Source: a virus. From it: a stretch of 27,788 nt of DNA. A model generated the notes under the pieces. That model was not told the DNA's origin and searched no databases. It was given only the letters and a program-made list of their open reading frames with translations. The position numbers were made by a program, and so were the translations under genes. The stretch covers positions 1-27,788 of the IMG/VR virus record IMGVR_UViG_3300031705_000036. The stretch is one strand, 5' to 3'. Positions 1 through 26,356 of this stretch are shown piece after piece. Every line of letters starts with the position of its first letter. Position 1 is the first letter of the stretch.

Positions 1-3000
1 AAGGCTTTCTCGAGCGCCGTTAATAGCAAAAATTGGAACAATATATTGTACTCTGCCATTTACGATGTTTCTTTCAATGGGATATTTCTTGTAATCTCTG
101 TTTATGCGATCAATTAAAACATTTCTAGTTTTATCTGCTTTAGCTATTTTATCTTCATATATTTTGTCCGCTGTTTTATTGGTAGATATTTTGCCATCAG
201 CTTCTTCATATAAATATATTTGACTTATTCTAGCTTCATAATTCTTTTTTACTTCTACTAAAACTTTTTTACCATCAAATTCAAATTCTATATCAACTTT
301 TTGAGAGTCTTTATTTAATTCTATGTTTTTTAATCTTAAATTAGGATTATTTTCGCTAAGAAACGTAAGTGTATCTCTAACTTTTTCTTCAGCCCACGGC
401 CATTTTTGTTTCTGCGCAAATTTTCTAAATTTAATATAAGGCTCAAAATATTTTTTATAATATTCTTCATAAGCGTCTGGAGCCAAGTCCTCTTCTATTG
501 TGTAAAGCACTTTATTAATTGCTTTTTGAGTAGGTTTTACATTTAATAACATTCCATATTTTAAAACTTCTTCTGGAGCATTTTTAAATATTTTATTAAA
601 ATTATTTTTATCTTTTACGCTAAACAGTACTTTACTTCCTTTTCCAACTTCAATATTAGTAGCCTGTTGGGCAGTTAGATTTTTTTGCAATCTCACTTCT
701 TGATTAGTGGCAAACTTAGCAAGCATGGTTATTAGTCCTTTAGCTGTTTGAGCAGCTTTATCTCTAGGACTGGCCATTCTTCTGCCATCAACATTGCCAA
801 TAGCTTTAAGTATAGAACTATTATCTATGCCTTTATTTTTTATATATGCTATTAAACCTGATAATCTAGTTCCTCTGTCTTGTCTTGTATATAAGTTAGA
901 ATCTTTTAAAAGATTGGTGGGTACACCAGTTGCAGTTCCTATAAGGTTTTCACTCACAGGTGATCCCTCTGCAATTGCAGCTTCAGGCAATGCCTGCCTG
1001 ATTATATCAATATTTTCTTCAATAAAGTTTATTACTTTATCAAGTTCATCTCTTGTAAAATTAGCTTTGCCATCAAACTTTTTAGCAGGTATACCAATGG
1101 CTTTTGCAAATACTTCGATGGCCGCGTTTGGTAATTTTTTAAAATTAAGTTGTTCTTCGGTAAGATTTAAATTAGCAACAGCATCTTTAAGCTCTTGCTT
1201 ACCTTCATTATTAAGAATATCTCTAACTAGCTTTCTGCCTTGCGCGGGAGCAGCAGGAGCGGATTCAACTTCGGTTTCTGCGGCAGCTTCAAATCCATCC
1301 TCGCGATCTTCTATTCTGCTTTCGCTTTTAGTTTTTTCACTTTCTTGAAATAATTCTTTTTTAGAACCTAATTTTGCAAATTGTACATCAGCAAAAACTC
1401 TTTCCCCAAATGCTTCAATACCCACCGCTGTGCCATCTGCTCGCTTTGCTTCAGGATTAAATTTTAATATTCTATTTGTTAAATTTTCAATTGTTTTTTC
1501 TGTTTCTGCTTTTGAAGTTGATATAGATCGAATGTAATTATTAATAACCCCACCTTGGTTATTTATAGCATTATATAGCTTTGGAAAAGCTCTGGGGTCA
1601 CTTTTAAAAGTTTCAAATTCTGCTTTTGTAGTAATATTTTGTGGAACAAGTTTATTAATATCTTCTAATACACTTGCTTTTTTAACAGAAAAGGTTGCTT
1701 CATTTGTTGTTAATTCAGTAGGTATAACAGCTTTTACATCTTCAGATAGTTTACCTTCTTTAATATTACGTGAATATTCCCGCATAAAATTATATACATC
1801 TTTACCCGTATTAAATTTTATTTTTTTAAATCCAAATTTTCTAAGTAATGGAGTTATATAATCACCTAATTTAGTAAATATATTATCATTATATGTAATT
1901 TGTTCTTCTAAAATCATGTCTCCAAATTGAGTTATAAACTCATCTGGATTTGCCTCCATGTATTTATCTGTATAAATGTCAATGCTTGCAATTCTTGCGT
2001 CCACTGCTGCAGCATTATCTTTACCTATTACTTTTTTAAATTCATCTACTAGTTGTTGAGGGTTAGCTTTTAATGCCTCTTGTAATATAGGATGTAGTAG
2101 CTCATGAGAAGGTTCTGTAATTGTTTTAAATTTCCCGGCAATTTCTTTATTTATATAAAGTTTACCGCCTTCAAAAAACCCACCTGAAGCACTATATTTT
2201 TTATTTTTTACATCTTTTATTTTATATTTATTTTCAAGCTCTTTTGCATTTTCTACAACTATAATCTTTGATGAGTCAATGGCTTCCACTATAGTTTGGG
2301 CAGCTCTATCAACTCTTAAATCACCAAGTTCTTTATCAATTGCATCAACTCTTTCTTGTTCAGGTTTTGTTAAAGCTGTATCACTTACTTTTTTAATTTG
2401 GTTTTCAAGTTTATTTTTTTCTTTTAATAATTCAACAGATTTAGTTTCTTGTTCTGTATTAAAATTTAAATCTTTTACTTGGTTAACTGCACCTTGTGTT
2501 GCTCTAAAGTTATTTTTAATTGTATCTCCTTCTTCTTTTGTAAGCTTACCTGATTTTACTTTTTCATTTACTTCTCTATCTACTATTTTTGTTGACTTAC
2601 TTTTTTTGCTTATATCAATAGCTGTTGTGCTATTGCTGTTTTTGTCAGAATAAACGTCTGATATACTTTTGTAATCGGAGTCTCTTACTGTTTTACCTAT
2701 TTCCGATGTTTGAATAGCCGTTTGTAAATTTAAAGCGGCGGAGCCTAAACTTAATGGAGCACTACCTAATCCAGCAAATGCTTCAAATCCAATTTCTTTT
2801 GCGTCCATTTCTTGGCCTGCAACTGCTCTACCAGCAACTTCTCCTAATCCACCACCAACAATTTCAGTTGCACCACCAGCCAATAAACCAACTTTACCTG
2901 CTAATCGCCCAGCTACCCCTTTTGCAATACCTAATGTTGCAAGTTCTACACCCGCAATTACTGCACCTCGCATTCCAGCTTTACGGCGCAAGTCAGACAT

Positions 3001-4017
3001 TTTTTCAGGATCATTTAATACAGCTCTTATTTTGTCTTTAACTTTAGGGTCATTTATGTCACCGCCAATTTCTTCCATTAGCAGCTCGTTGAATGTTAAA
3101 CCAGCTTCCATCATAGCCATTGAACCTGTAGTTATACCTACAACAGTTCCTAATGGCCCAGCAAGAGACCCAGCTAAAGCCCCTGCGGTTGCGGCCATTG
3201 CGACTTCCTCTGAGTTTTTAATTGAACTTAATTGGGAAGCTACGGAGCTAGTGAGCATGGTTGTTAACAGGCTTGGATTATATGCAGCTCCTTTTAAAAA
3301 TCCCCACATTCCTCCACCAGCTTCTTCAAATATTTTATCAAACTCCCGCATTTCAGCAGATTGAATAGTTTTTTGAGCTACTTCTTTTTGTCCATTTACA
3401 AAAGCATCAAGCTCTTCTTCATTTGCAGGATCACCAAAAAACCCGGCTAATTCAATTCCTCTGTCTGTTTGTTCACCTTGGAGCATACCATTGTTCCAGG
3501 CATTGCCTATGTCGCCTACAAAATCTACTATATTTTCATAAATATATTGCGGAGCAGATTCGTATTTTATTTCTTCATCTTCTTCTTTTTTTGTAGAATT
3601 TAATTTGTTATCAATTGCTTGTATAGAAGTCTGTTTTTTGTTTTCTTTAACTAATTGTGCATTTACTCTTTTTTCTTTTTCTTTGTCTACTCTAATTTGA
3701 ATTTCAAGATTACTTAAACCTTGTGCACTTAATTCATCAACAAGATTTTTTAGCTCTTGTATTGATTGATTTTTTGTATTATCTGCAAACAATTCCGAAG
3801 AACCATTTTCCAAATTGGAATCCATATTGGTTGCTACATTTTCCTCCACAATTGCAACCTCTTCTGGTTGTGAAGGTAATGTCTTTCCCAAATTATTTTC
3901 AGTATTAAAATCTTGTTTTTTTATATCTACTTGAGATTGTATTTCTTTTTTACTTAAACCTTCAGATTCTAATTTATCAATAAGATCTACTAATTGCTGC
4001 CTTTGATCTTCGTTCAT
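1..4017 (-). CDS. Giant internal virion (gp16-like ejection/cargo) protein with HELLH metallopeptidase motif, 3' end truncated by window
   Basis: One uninterrupted frame of 1339 codons runs from ATG at 4017 to the window edge, so the C-terminus is missing. Seen in order: two copies of a helical motif (residues 7-33 and 87-113); Gly/Ala-rich hydrophobic stretches at about 274-305 and 345-410, which look able to interact with membrane; Lys/Glu-rich probable coiled coil at about 430-590; HELLH at 638-642, with E693 in a DEF context as possible third zinc ligand; an acidic Ala/Pro linker at about 895-926; and near the end D1242 followed by E1255-V-K1257, reminiscent of a PD-(D/E)xK nuclease core. 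It is the third and largest of three consecutive genes placed like T7 gp14-gp15-gp16 or the crAss cargo proteins. I infer a protein packaged in the head and ejected with DNA. Peptidase and nuclease activities are motif-level guesses. The leader is A/T-only, without Shine-Dalgarno. Confidence 0.8.
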   Translation of the reverse strand, partial: MNEDQRQQLVDLIDKLESEGLSKKEIQSQVDIKKQDFNTENNLGKTLPSQPEEVAIVEENVATNMDSNLENGSSELFADNTKNQSIQELKNLVDELSAQGLSNLEIQIRVDKEKEKRVNAQLVKENKKQTSIQAIDNKLNSTKKEEDEEIKYESAPQYIYENIVDFVGDIGNAWNNGMLQGEQTDRGIELAGFFGDPANEEELDAFVNGQKEVAQKTIQSAEMREFDKIFEEAGGGMWGFLKGAAYNPSLLTTMLTSSVASQLSSIKNSEEVAMAATAGALAGSLAGPLGTVVGITTGSMAMMEAGLTFNELLMEEIGGDINDPKVKDKIRAVLNDPEKMSDLRRKAGMRGAVIAGVELATLGIAKGVAGRLAGKVGLLAGGATEIVGGGLGEVAGRAVAGQEMDAKEIGFEAFAGLGSAPLSLGSAALNLQTAIQTSEIGKTVRDSDYKSISDVYSDKNSNSTTAIDISKKSKSTKIVDREVNEKVKSGKLTKEEGDTIKNNFRATQGAVNQVKDLNFNTEQETKSVELLKEKNKLENQIKKVSDTALTKPEQERVDAIDKELGDLRVDRAAQTIVEAIDSSKIIVVENAKELENKYKIKDVKNKKYSASGGFFEGGKLYINKEIAGKFKTITEPSHELLHPILQEALKANPQQLVDEFKKVIGKDNAAAVDARIASIDIYTDKYMEANPDEFITQFGDMILEEQITYNDNIFTKLGDYITPLLRKFGFKKIKFNTGKDVYNFMREYSRNIKEGKLSEDVKAVIPTELTTNEATFSVKKASVLEDINKLVPQNITTKAEFETFKSDPRAFPKLYNAINNQGGVINNYIRSISTSKAETEKTIENLTNRILKFNPEAKRADGTAVGIEAFGERVFADVQFAKLGSKKELFQESEKTKSESRIEDREDGFEAAAETEVESAPAAPAQGRKLVRDILNNEGKQELKDAVANLNLTEEQLNFKKLPNAAIEVFAKAIGIPAKKFDGKANFTRDELDKVINFIEENIDIIRQALPEAAIAEGSPVSENLIGTATGVPTNLLKDSNLYTRQDRGTRLSGLIAYIKNKGIDNSSILKAIGNVDGRRMASPRDKAAQTAKGLITMLAKFATNQEVRLQKNLTAQQATNIEVGKGSKVLFSVKDKNNFNKIFKNAPEEVLKYGMLLNVKPTQKAINKVLYTIEEDLAPDAYEEYYKKYFEPYIKFRKFAQKQKWPWAEEKVRDTLTFLSENNPNLRLKNIELNKDSQKVDIEFEFDGKKVLVEVKKNYEARISQIYLYEEADGKISTNKTADKIYEDKIAKADKTRNVLIDRINRDYKKYPIERNIVNGRVQYIVPIFAINGARESL
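3679..3759 (-). repeat. N-terminal coding repeat B of the giant protein
   Basis: Second copy (QELKNLVDELSAQGLSNLEI and on, residues 87-113). The two helical copies are joined by a ~50-residue acidic, Asn-rich linker. They may be short docking helices binding the same partner twice. Confidence 0.75.
3919..3999 (-). repeat. N-terminal coding repeat A of the giant protein
   Basis: Residues 7-33 (QQLVDLIDKLESEGLSKKEI and on) match residues 87-113 in length, hydrophobic spacing and the core GLS-x-x-EIQ-x-x-VD. Part of the match persists at DNA level: acttaaacc at 3952-3960 here equals acttaaacc at 3712-3720. Period 240 nt (80 residues). Confidence 0.75.
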
Positions 4018-4028
4018 TATTAAATAAT

Positions 4029-5600
4029 TTATATATTAATTCCATTATAGGCTTCAGTATTTCCTATATTTGTTTTTTTATTTTCTTCATCTAGTTTTTT
4101 TGATTTTTCTTTATCATAATACCCTGTAAAGTCTTTAGCATCTCTTTCACTTATACCTTTAGCTTCTTGTATTTTTCTTAAAAATACTCTAATTTCTTCT
4201 CCTGGCTGAATAGTTATAGAAGAATATTTTGACCCTTTTTGTGGACTTACTTGAATATCTTGTATATTACCTTCATCATCTTTTACAATTTTTTCTATTT
4301 TAAATCCAAGTTTATTAATATTTGTTGTAAAGTTATCGCTTAACTCTCCATCATCACCTATTGCTTTTAAAGCGCCTCTAAATTGACCCACTTTAGTTTG
4401 ATCAAATCCATCAAAATTTTTTGCGGTCTCTAATAAATCCTCTTGTATTACTGTTCTTTTTTGAGCGTAATCTTTATCTGTTTTTGAAACTTTTGGAAGT
4501 GCTTTTCTAGTAAAGGTTGCAACGTTTCTTTCTCTTTGTACGTAATTATTAAGACCATAATCTATGTATGCATCTGTAAATAATTTTTTAGTTTTATCAT
4601 CCCATACAAAATTATCTGTTGGCAACGGCGTAAAAGGTATTTCTTTATCTGTTCTAGGGTCTCTTCTTCCGGGACCAATAACATTATTATACAATGCGGT
4701 AGCTTCTTCTATACTTGTTCCAGAAAGAGCATCTGCATTAGCCCTTAGCATTGTGCCGTTTTTTGCTAAAACTTTATCTACATCAATTTTATAATATTGT
4801 TCAGTTCTACCATTCCCAAGATCTTTAAAAAAAAGCTTAGGTCTTTCCCCATCACCCGATTGAAAATAATAATCATCTACTTCCTGGGTTTCATTATTTA
4901 TTAAATTAGCTCTTACATTTTCATATTGCTGCGTTTCATCAGGAACAACATTAATAGGTGAGCCACCTTTTTGTATCATTAAATCTAAATTAGCACAAGA
5001 CTCAGACCATAATAATTTTCCGTCGCCATTATAAACTTCCCATCGTTGGCTTGGTGGGTTAGATTCTAAATCTGTAACTAATTTTTTTGTTCCTTTAGCA
5101 TTACCATTTAAAACTTCCATAGCTTCTAAAGTATCTACGTTATTACCAGCAGTATCAATACCAGCCATTTTGCCTATATTTACTTTAGCTTCTTTAGCTA
5201 TTCCAGCTATTAATGCAATATCAGATATGCTTCCTTTAGATGTATTTACCATTGCATCTAAGTCAGAAACTCTTTTTTTATCTTCAGGAGTTCCGTCCCC
5301 ATTAACTATTCTTCTTTGTAGCTCTGCATATTCGGTTTTAGCTTCTCTCCATGTATCGTCCCAGTTAACTGATGGATTTGCAAATTCCTCTTGAGATTGA
5401 CCCGCGGTAAAAGCACCCACCCGCTCATCAATTTTATCGTACATTTTTTTAATCTCTTTTTTATTTTCAATTGCTGCATCAATATATCCTGTAGTTGCGC
5501 CTACAATATCATCTTGTAACTTCTGATTTATTTTTTGATCAGATAAAATTATCTCACGGTTACCATATGTTAACCTGGATCCCGCTGCTGGTCCTGCCAT
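4029..5600 (-). CDS. Internal virion protein, gp15-like position (523 aa)
   Basis: This 523-aa soluble, charged protein has no signal peptide or membrane segment. The N-terminal third (about 20-150) is helical and Lys/Glu-rich, followed by a mixed region with Gly/Asn-rich turns and a Lys-rich C-terminal tail (about 490-523). I recognise no catalytic motif. Its size and position, directly after a small membrane-associated internal protein and 11 nt before a giant multidomain protein, match the middle member of the T7-type ejection triad (gp14, gp15, gp16) and the cargo proteins of crAss-like phages. The role as an ejected internal or conduit protein is inferred from that order only. The start at 5600 follows TATAATT with no Shine-Dalgarno. 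Confidence 0.7.
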   Translation of the reverse strand: MAGPAAGSRLTYGNREIILSDQKINQKLQDDIVGATTGYIDAAIENKKEIKKMYDKIDERVGAFTAGQSQEEFANPSVNWDDTWREAKTEYAELQRRIVNGDGTPEDKKRVSDLDAMVNTSKGSISDIALIAGIAKEAKVNIGKMAGIDTAGNNVDTLEAMEVLNGNAKGTKKLVTDLESNPPSQRWEVYNGDGKLLWSESCANLDLMIQKGGSPINVVPDETQQYENVRANLINNETQEVDDYYFQSGDGERPKLFFKDLGNGRTEQYYKIDVDKVLAKNGTMLRANADALSGTSIEEATALYNNVIGPGRRDPRTDKEIPFTPLPTDNFVWDDKTKKLFTDAYIDYGLNNYVQRERNVATFTRKALPKVSKTDKDYAQKRTVIQEDLLETAKNFDGFDQTKVGQFRGALKAIGDDGELSDNFTTNINKLGFKIEKIVKDDEGNIQDIQVSPQKGSKYSSITIQPGEEIRVFLRKIQEAKGISERDAKDFTGYYDKEKSKKLDEENKKTNIGNTEAYNGINI

Positions 5601-5625: not shown

Positions 5626-5730
5626 TTATCTTCTTTTTAATCCTGAAAAATCTCCTACAGGAACATTAAATGTACCTCGAGTTGGAGTAATTGAACTAAC
5701 TGTTTTAACGCCACCAGCTGGGCGGTTTAC
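5626..5730 (-). CDS. Candidate -1 frame extension of the gp14-like protein (34 codons)
   Basis: After slippage on GGGAAAG, reading from GTA at 5730 gives 34 residues and then TAA at 5626-5628. The product would be the 252-aa chain plus VNRPAGGVKTVSS and a further 21 residues, ending in SGLKRR, 286 aa in total. The stretch has no ATG/GTG/TTG start in this frame, and the -1 frame is closed by TAA at 5749-5751, only 18 nt upstream of the heptamer. It therefore cannot easily be an independent gene. Composition (Val, Gly, Pro, Thr, basic C-terminus) looks like protein, not random AT-rich spacer. It fills most of the otherwise unexplained 126-nt gap before the next gene. Alternative: a sequencing indel or a recent frameshift mutation. 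Confidence 0.6.
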   Translation of the reverse strand, partial: VNRPAGGVKTVSSITPTRGTFNVPVGDFSGLKRR

Positions 5731-5736
5731 TTTCCC
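5709..5736 (-). promoter_or_regulatory. Putative programmed -1 ribosomal frameshift site: GGGAAAG slippery heptamer plus hairpin
   Basis: On the coding strand the zero-frame codons are TTG GGA AAG TAA, so G-GGA-AAG (5736 to 5730) fits X-XXY-YYZ. This is the same heptamer used by the lambda G/GT tail genes. Five bases later (5725-5729 is the spacer) CGCCC (5724-5720) can pair with GG(U)GGCG (5715-5709), with one bulged U and a short loop. This is a GC-rich hairpin in an AT-rich genome at the usual spacing for a stimulator. The stop codon is immediately 3' of the heptamer, which often favours slippage. Seen directly: heptamer, register, hairpin and open -1 frame. Efficiency is unknown. Confidence 0.62.
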
Positions 5737-6485
5737 AATTTTGCTACTTTAGCATCTAATCCTCCTTGCATCATTGAACCACCTATTTTTGCTACTCCTC
5801 CAATAGCACCTGTAATAGCAGCTGTTCTATCTTGGTTTGCTTGGCGTTCTCTATTTGCAGCTCCTTGCATTTGATCAAAAGTTCTATCAATACCATCTTG
5901 CTGGCGTCTTTCCTTGCTACTAAATTTAAATTGCTCTCCTTCTGCCATTATACCTTGGACCCTAGATCCCTCAGCAACTGTAGCCCCTTGGACTCTTTGC
6001 GATTCTGCTAATCTTTGATTTTGTAAGTTTTCATTGCCCGCGGCTTTCATTTTTTCATTTGCAGCCTCTTGTTGCTCTATACTAGCAGAAATACCTTTTT
6101 TACTTGCTAAAGCGGCTTGGGCCAAAGCTGTTGCCCCTCCTGCGCTCGCACCACTTGCTTGCAGTGTATCTAATGTATTAGCCAATGCTATATCTGCTTC
6201 CTCAGCTTGCATTCTTGCTCCTTGAGTAGCAACTCCTAGATTATTATATGAATTAGTTAGCTCTCCACCCATGTCTTGTATAATATCACTTTGATTTGAT
6301 ATAGAAGATGCATAGGGGTTTATAACTGCTTGTCTAGAACTTTCTAAGCTATCTAATTTTTTAGCTAACCTGGCCTTTTCTCGTGCTGCTTCTCTAGCAC
6401 GCCCTTTAGCTTTACTAGCCCCAAAAATACCACTTATTATGGATGAGCCTGCGCCAATAATTGCACCTCCAACTATAAAACTCAT
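5727..6485 (-). CDS. Internal virion protein, gp14-like (252 aa, zero-frame product)
   Basis: A Gly/Ile-rich hydrophobic segment at residues 4-24 is followed by a basic Ala/Arg/Lys helix, a long Ala/Gln/Glu-rich helical region (about 45-215) and a second Gly-rich hydrophobic patch (about 222-243). The stretch near 115-170 (GGATALAQAAL, then SIEQQEA and an AESQ repeat) is typical of small internal or ejection proteins of podoviruses. It probably sits inside the virion at the portal end and inserts into the host envelope during DNA entry. It starts 4 nt after the cupin-like gene. The UAA stop at 5727-5729 directly abuts a GGGAAAG heptamer, and the -1 frame then stays open for 34 codons (separate entries). 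The family role is by resemblance and position; no biochemical signature was seen. Confidence 0.78.
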   Translation of the reverse strand: MSFIVGGAIIGAGSSIISGIFGASKAKGRAREAAREKARLAKKLDSLESSRQAVINPYASSISNQSDIIQDMGGELTNSYNNLGVATQGARMQAEEADIALANTLDTLQASGASAGGATALAQAALASKKGISASIEQQEAANEKMKAAGNENLQNQRLAESQRVQGATVAEGSRVQGIMAEGEQFKFSSKERRQQDGIDRTFDQMQGAANRERQANQDRTAAITGAIGGVAKIGGSMMQGGLDAKVAKLGK

Positions 6486-25872: not shown

Positions 25873-26037
25873 TTACTTCTTCATATTTTTTTCAATTGCT
25901 TTCTGACGAGTAGTTTCGTAAGAACTCATACTTCCATCCTTATCTAAATCGCCTTTCATTTCCATTGCGCTTGCTCTTTTAGCCATTGGATTAATATTTA
26001 AAAGATTTGCCGCGTGTTTTGACATAAATGTACTCAT
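25873..26037 (-). CDS. EF-hand loop mini-protein (54 aa)
   Basis: Residues 30-41 read DLDKDGSMSSYE, a complete EF-hand/dockerin-type calcium loop: Asp at 1, 3 and 5, Gly at 6, Ser at 7 and 9, hydrophobic Met at 8, Glu at 12. It is followed by a helix (TTRQKAIEKN). The N-terminal half has a short helix (MSKHAANLLNI). I chose ATG 26037 and not the longer frame starting at 26154, because the extra 39 residues lie entirely inside the preceding peptidase gene, are unusually basic and have no leader; 26037 has the usual ATAATATT leader. Ends 1 nt before the holin gene. Function unknown; calcium binding is inferred from the loop. Confidence 0.72.
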   Translation of the reverse strand: MSTFMSKHAANLLNINPMAKRASAMEMKGDLDKDGSMSSYETTRQKAIEKNMKK

Positions 26038-26041
26038 AATA

Positions 26042-26356
26042 TTATTTTTTTGTTTTGTTATATGCTTCTTTTTCCCAAGGAAGTTCTTTAGCACCTTCTT
26101 GCATTTTACTTCTAGAATATGTTTTACCTTTCCAGTAAACATTTTTATCGTCATAATCTAAATCTCCTCGTTTAAATTGATCTATATGTACCATTTCATG
26201 GCCAACTACTTTATCAATTTTTTTTGGATTTAAATTTTTATTAACTAATATAGTTCCATTATTATTAGCTTTGCCTAAAACATCATCTCCTAAATCTACA
26301 CTATATATAGGTGTATTATCTTGATTATAAGGTGGTGTGTTTAATTTAAACGCCAT
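26042..26356 (-). CDS. Mini HExxH zinc metallopeptidase-like protein (104 aa)
   Basis: Contains VGHEMVHIDQ with HEMVH at 53-57. ELPWEKEAYN at 91-100, with E97 followed by Ala, is a good third-ligand candidate, giving a gluzincin-type layout in only ~104 residues. The N-terminal part (about 10-50) has two beta hairpins (PIYSVDLG, NGTILVNKNL) as seen in compact Zn peptidases. No signal peptide. Overlaps the 51-aa gene by 11 nt and is 4 nt from the EF-hand gene. Proteolysis of a virion or host envelope target during assembly or lysis is possible; the substrate is unknown. Confidence 0.72.
   Translation of the reverse strand: MAFKLNTPPYNQDNTPIYSVDLGDDVLGKANNNGTILVNKNLNPKKIDKVVGHEMVHIDQFKRGDLDYDDKNVYWKGKTYSRSKMQEGAKELPWEKEAYNKTKK

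Follow-up and report, generated by a model that had tools for sequence, protein, structure and literature searches.

Introduction

Frameshifting in phages is known from tail chaperones, major capsid and tail-shaft proteins, a few enzymes, and IS elements. The frameshift of the phage lambda G/GT tail-assembly chaperone and its relatives was reportedly described by Xu, Hendrix and Duda in 2004, and the frameshift attachment of phage Ig-like domains by Fraser et al. in 2006. According to the available part of a 2016 recoding review (PMC5009743), the heptamer G_GGA_AAG is highly shift-prone in E. coli, and lambda G/GT makes a -1 shift at this heptamer close to the 3' end of the upstream gene, with a low level of the longer product expected and with conservation across divergent phages. 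The same part of the review describes minor, C-terminally extended virion proteins, formed by frameshifting near the 0-frame stop, in T7/T3 gene 10 (10A/10B), Lactobacillus phage A2, and Listeria phages PSA, A118, and A500. Furthermore, it presents phage Ig-like domains as exchangeable C-terminal modules, the attachment of which varies among phages between a -1 shift, a +1 shift, and in-frame fusion. The internal virion protein gp14 of T7 is present in eight copies in the core, and the outer-membrane channel consists of six (PMC11784390). The T7 gp14 papers PMC8954989 and PMC11784390 make no mention of frameshifting, and the word "ejection" is not found in the available part of PMC5009743. We found no earlier report of frameshifting in an ejection-type or internal virion protein in the open-licence literature, the silence of which is not proof.

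The locus described here lies in a window of 27,788 nucleotides, which is the whole stretch of viral DNA that was analysed (IMG/VR record IMGVR_UViG_3300031705_000036). A programmed -1 ribosomal frameshift probably adds a tail of 34 residues to part of a probable gp14-like virion protein; we put the probability of this reading at about 90%. All the traits of lambda G/GT listed above recur at the locus. However, the site belongs to a helical virion protein encoded before gp15/gp16-like genes, a short, diverse, and swappable tail takes the place of the T domain, the stop codon adjoins the heptamer, and the hairpin stem differs in each relative. A chaperone of the lambda G/GT type, encoded between the major tail protein and the tape measure, does not fit the locus: the genome is of the podovirus type and has no tape measure, and its terminase, portal, and virion genes match those of podovirus-type Flavobacterium and Cellulophaga phages. 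The locus shares with gene 10 of T7/T3 and with A2, PSA, A118, and A500 a (here predicted) minor extended form and a shift near the stop, but the proteins there are major capsid or tail-shaft proteins, whereas the protein here probably belongs to the internal ejection type, and neither the sites nor the tails are related. As in the Ig-like domains, the modules are exchangeable, and the mode of attachment appears indifferent to -1, +1, or in-frame joining; nevertheless, the tails of 15–49 residues are too short for Ig-like domains, and S74-like domains occur in 0-frame relatives.

Results

The 252-residue gene ends with the codons AAA TTG GGA AAG TAA (Table 1). The first-pass annotation of the window had listed four elements, all of which are present: the heptamer GGGAAAG in the X_XXY_YYZ register abutting the UAA stop, a GC-rich hairpin with a stem that begins at the fifth base past the heptamer, a -1 frame of 34 codons without its own start, and a -1 stop that closes this frame upstream. 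No ATG, GTG, or TTG was found in the overlap of the 0 and -1 frames. The -1 frame runs from GTA (5730–5728) to AGA, followed by the stop TAA (5628–5626), and its predicted product includes the segments TVSSITPTR and GTFNVPVGDFSGLK. Taken alone, this is one suggestive site. Two other genes of the window end with A_AAA_AAA; we do not claim them as further frameshift sites, because their -1 frames comprise 3 codons in one case and, in the other, 25 codons that overlap the next gene.

Table 1. Features of the locus in window coordinates; all lie on the minus strand.
Feature	Position	Strand	Basis or remark
0-frame gene, 252 aa, probable gp14-like internal/ejection virion protein (body)	5727..6485	-	Homologues, model, fold matches
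Slippery heptamer G_GGA_AAG, X_XXY_YYZ register, adjoining the 0-frame stop	5730..5736	-	Heptamer class kept in 28 tailed homologues
0-frame stop UAA	5727..5729	-	Read from sequence
Predicted -1 frame tail, 34 codons VNRPAGGVKTVSSITPTRGTFNVPVGDFSGLKRR and stop UAA	5626..5730	-	Full product 286 aa
Upstream -1 frame stop	5749..5751	-	Overlap kept to 18 nt, independent start excluded
Stem-loop CCGCC-CAGCU-GGUGG, presumed frameshift stimulator	5711..5725	-	-6.7 kcal/mol; weak alone, recurrent in homologues
Downstream gene, 523 aa, gp15-like by position	4029..5600	-	PHROGs and Pfam gave no match
Downstream gene, at least 1339 aa, cut by window end	1..4017	-	gp16-like by position and size

A tblastn search with three different queries against 50,697 phage records returned no homologue of the 252-residue protein, and isolates were therefore unusable for comparison. 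Homologues were gathered from viral contigs and genome contigs, and the removal of duplicates left 218 distinct loci. In most of these, the next gene starts at most 35 nt downstream and nothing is left over, whereas in 31 of the 218 a -1 tail of 15–49 codons fills the gap to the next gene. The 31 tailed homologues come from many metagenomes and have body identities of 0.38–0.94. A canonical in-register heptamer is located 0, 3, or 6 nt before the stop in 28 of them (GGGAAAG in 15, AAAAAAG in 5, GGGAAAT in 4, GGGAAAC in 2, and GGGAAAA in 2); the other three have T_TTT_TAR (L004 and L445) or GGG GAA GAC TAG (L609). Among the first 193 classified loci, and with kinship ignored, a heptamer within 9 nt of the stop occurs in 25 of the 27 loci whose gap measures 45 nt or more and in 4 of the 166 without such a gap (Fisher p=4.6e-25). 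Since related sequences are not independent, independent pairs were also counted on a tree, with 8.7 pairs in the same direction and 0.5 in the opposite one (median p 0.008; about 20 state changes).

The heptamer is rare elsewhere in the homologous genes, where GGGAAAN in the frameshift register occurs twice among 46,855 other codons. All GGGAAA cases have a G directly ahead of GGA, even though the codon that this G closes specifies 11 kinds of amino acid (P, A, M, V, L, W, G, T, K, E, and S) and third-position G otherwise has a frequency of 11%; the rough log10 product of these frequencies is -28, with rows that are not independent. In some homologues A_AAA_AAG stands in for G_GGA_AAG. Slipperiness, rather than amino acid sequence, is what is conserved, and third positions near the site are under nucleotide constraint. 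The first-pass annotation had proposed to test whether heptamer, stop, and -1 extension are conserved together with synonymous constraint; among the homologues, heptamer and -1 tail do occur together. It had also held that homologues without heptamer and extension would speak against frameshifting. Most homologues are of this kind, and the tail is thus dispensable across the family, yet heptamer and tail are gained and lost together; their joint presence and absence supports the link between them, and we judge the absence of both to be the wrong test.

The pattern also bears on the possibility that the -1 tail is the relic of a recent indel, natural or introduced by assembly, in a gene that was once longer and in which the heptamer is incidental. 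A tail in the +1 frame, as in one relative, or in the 0 frame, as in some others, is what an indel might leave. However, the same arrangement recurs in 31 distinct homologues, nearly always with the same heptamer class, and the tails are under frame-preserving constraint. The junction, at which the first-pass annotation had considered an indel, is identical in a second IMG/VR contig (L001) that differs from the window by 1 base in 1,400. Together with the persistence of the arrangement in divergent relatives, this identity excludes an assembly indel, within the limits of what assemblies can show. On the sequences compared, the family pattern already refutes the indel relic as a whole, and we give it next to no credence.

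The tails of the 31 homologues were compared with 44,242 six-frame open reading frames of the loci using phmmer, and each of the 22 non-self matches was to a -1 tail of this gene. For the tail of the window itself, the near-identical L001 was the only significant homologue in this search, and this tail is probably coding, as judged from the pattern of the family. In alignments of related tails, differences at positions 1, 2, and 3 of the -1-frame codons number 70, 63, and 107 (p=9e-4), counted from frame-blind nucleotide alignments, as protein-guided alignments gave bias, and 14 of 20 indels have lengths divisible by three. In nearly all tailed loci, 4–25 nt separate the -1 stop from the following ATG (25 nt in the window), and in tail-less loci a median of 11 nt separates the 0-frame stop from it. 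Three loci deviate: the tail of L102 overlaps what may be an earlier ATG in frame, and in L048 and L149 the next start was missed by the length rule used. The tails form several families and are rich in glycine, threonine, serine, asparagine, and proline. The basic KRR end, which had been proposed as a feature of the extended form, is not conserved, and the net charge of the tails ranges from -4 to +6 among homologues.

The hairpin of the window is no better than those of dinucleotide shuffles (z -0.06), and it is convincing only across the family. The 42 nt past the heptamer have a mean folding energy of -7.8 kcal/mol in tailed loci and -0.9 kcal/mol in tail-less ones (p=6e-17), with mean z-scores of -0.78 and 0.16, respectively (p=1e-4). 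The GC content is 0.53 in the first 24 nt, compared to 0.32 across the rest of the tail. The position of the stem is fixed and its sequence varies by locus, with CCGCC/GGUGG in the window, AACCCC/GGGGUU in L118, GGGCC/GGCCC in L136, GCCCA/UGGGC in L042, and GCCC/GGGC in L083. Such a GC-rich hairpin directly after the stop in nearly all tailed loci could also belong to a non-coding RNA element, such as a terminator, regulatory hairpin, or processing site, next to a -1 frame that is open by chance, and a single open stretch of 34 codons is not itself improbable. Nevertheless, the -1 frame is open for 15–49 codons and reaches the next gene in 27 of 27 loci, the tail matches are restricted to this frame, and differences are in excess at third positions. 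Moreover, a hairpin of this kind would need no in-register heptamer, no U-runs were found after the stems in the homologue sequences, and an Rfam scan gave no match at the gathering threshold. A non-coding element is thus extremely unlikely. The initial reading of the site as a programmed -1 frameshift is strongly supported by the comparison of the 31 homologues, in which co-occurrence, third-position constraint, hairpins, and tails confined to the -1 frame point in the same direction.

Of the 28 frameshift genes, 22 use UAG as the 0-frame stop, compared to 19 of 190 others. UAG is a stop codon that is read by one release factor only. Slow termination may possibly be helpful, or the G may be part of the stem region. 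The excess of UAG would also suit synthesis of the tail by stop readthrough, and transcriptional slippage, in place of ribosomal -1 slippage, is conceivable at the five A_AAA_AAG sites. However, a readthrough product would remain in the 0 frame, which closes within 3–33 codons past the stop in tailed homologues; reinitiation is opposed by the finding that the -1 frame of 28 of 31 tailed homologues lacks an ATG close to the junction; and GGGAAA contains no long homopolymer for transcriptional slippage. Strict adherence to the X_XXY_YYZ register speaks for tandem tRNA slippage, and these other routes to the tail are very unlikely. A Shine-Dalgarno-like GGAG at -25 to -5 is slightly over-represented (11 of 28 compared to 27 of 190), but we do not claim it as an upstream stimulator because it is confounded by GC content.

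Unrelated tails occur on near-identical bodies (L123 and L124, 87%; L445 and L538, 89%), and related tails occur on distant bodies (L013 and L123, 56%; L538 and L549, 55%; L083 and L102, 66%). The tails thus behave as swappable C-terminal modules. Tail type is not linked to the type of the downstream gene, as related tails precede genes of the MSYRNP-, MGAYENP-, and MGYxIPGADF-types. Some tail-less homologues end in a 0-frame S74-like domain (SDRRLK...GVMSDEIP...VDYSKIDVEFK; Pfam E=0.02–0.05, below the cut-off), which occupies the position of the frameshift tail in L068, L067, L238, L076, L015, L060, and others. Other tail-less relatives, such as L454, have short 0-frame tails. Matches between the tails and the 0-frame C-termini of tail-less homologues are mostly of low complexity, and only that to L454 is plausible. 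The C-terminus of the protein is thus an exchange point, and the slip site one way to join a module to some of the molecules. Module swapping, like the conserved heptamer and hairpin and the coding in the -1 frame, is visible in the genomes themselves.

In L566, which was left out of the 31 tailed loci since its tail is in the +1 frame, a tail-like sequence (NSASSITPASNSLVG...) follows GGG TAA C, and the next gene starts after a gap of 126 nt; the arrangement reflects a +1 shift site or else an indel. The syntenic cultured relative Elemovirus elemoA encodes gp23, a virion structural protein (L390, 34436–35044), with similar motif spacing. The match is weak (HMM E=0.16), and the 0-frame end of gp23, ...TPTTPLFQ, recalls the end TNPLFQ of the -1 tail of L013.

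The terminase, portal, major structural, and tail genes on the minus strand of the window are related to those of Flavobacterium (Elemovirus), Cellulophaga, and Tenacibaculum phages (PHROG). The terminase has 61% identity to that of Podoviridae sp. ctfjg026 and about 46% to that of Elemovirus. The virus group is uncultured and widespread, with Bacteroidetes-type bacteria as hosts. Structural genes of 1532 and 500 residues are located upstream of the 252-residue gene. The succession of products of 252, 523, and at least 1339 residues after the tail tube genes resembles T7 14-15-16, and similar gene order and sizes are found in Elemovirus and MW202828. The latter two genomes (L390 and L389, respectively) also carry phage-encoded GroEL and GroES genes several kilobases upstream of the terminase. 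At 26042–26356 on the minus strand, the window contains an open reading frame of 104 residues with a GHEMVH motif, like a small metallopeptidase, which overlaps the open reading frame 25873–26154 in another frame.

The AlphaFold model of the 252-residue protein is nearly all helical, with a disordered hydrophobic N-terminus (mean pLDDT 67, pTM 0.29). With this low-confidence model as the query, the top viral fold matches are named "internal virion protein" (probabilities of 1.00, with E=1.9e-3, and 0.60), and further viral matches come from the cyanopodophage P-SSP6, P60, and LKA1. A fold search of the PDB returned generic coiled coils only, and searches of PHROGs and Pfam with the single 252-residue protein returned no match. 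Pfam T7_gp14 (PF24072) was reached at E=0.021–0.26, below the cut-off, PHROG 805, used as a test for internal virion proteins, gave E=0.059 in 1 of 35 and did not reach significance, and hhalign against T7 gp14 gave a probability of 0.5%. The protein thus resembles T7 gp14 in its position before gp15/gp16-like genes, its helices, its hydrophobic N-terminus, and possibly its fold, but not in significant sequence similarity. The initial gp14-like ejection label is moderately supported, by gene order and by weak Pfam and fold matches; a significant sequence match to T7 gp14 did not emerge.

The frameshift may also be real in a protein that is not of the ejection type, for example a tail-associated fibre, an adaptor, or a scaffold. 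S74-like chaperone domains are usual on fibres, and the sub-threshold S74-like domain at the C-terminus of some homologues, together with the missing sequence match to T7 gp14, would be in keeping with such a role. Set against it are the gene order that mirrors T7 14-15-16, the hydrophobic N-terminal stretch of an all-helical model, and internal virion proteins as the best viral fold matches. We consider a fibre, adaptor, or scaffold unlikely, although a serious contender, and the 252-residue protein is probably a gp14-like ejection protein, as suggested by gene order and by weak profile and fold matches.

Discussion

In the mechanism that we propose, ribosomes that reach the last two sense codons of the gene, GGA AAG, would meet the compact GC-rich hairpin a few bases downstream. 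A fraction of them would slip back by one base, re-pairing from GGA to GGG and from AAG to AAA, and translate the tail of 34 residues in the -1 frame, with KLGK-VNRPAGG as the junction predicted for tandem slippage, while the remainder would stop at UAA. The outcome would be a major form of 252 residues and a minor form of 286 residues of the probable gp14-like internal virion protein. Across the family as a whole, sites of this kind would join a swappable C-terminal module. We infer that frameshifting takes place and that both forms enter the virion.

The tail would then act on a subset of the gp14-like copies, where it may face the envelope at ejection or adapt the symmetry mismatch of the core. 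Given the eight copies of T7 gp14 in the core and six in the channel, a minority form would mean few special copies per virion, which may be turned towards the host envelope, the portal, or DNA. More speculatively, and with low confidence, interchangeable tails on a few copies of a ring-forming ejection protein might produce an outer-membrane channel that is asymmetric or adapted to the host, and the slip site might serve as a standard socket for the exchange of tails. This offers a testable answer to the change in gp14 copy number between core and channel, a question left open in PMC11784390. If it is correct, the rate of frameshifting could be the means by which a phage determines how many special copies it has.

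The finding is larger than first noted, as the comparison of homologues indicates that a whole gene family of uncultured podovirus-type phages has a conserved programmed -1 frameshift. Throughout this large virus group the signal is found again, tied to swappable C-terminal modules, and gene callers consequently miss 15–49 residues of a virion protein in many genomes.
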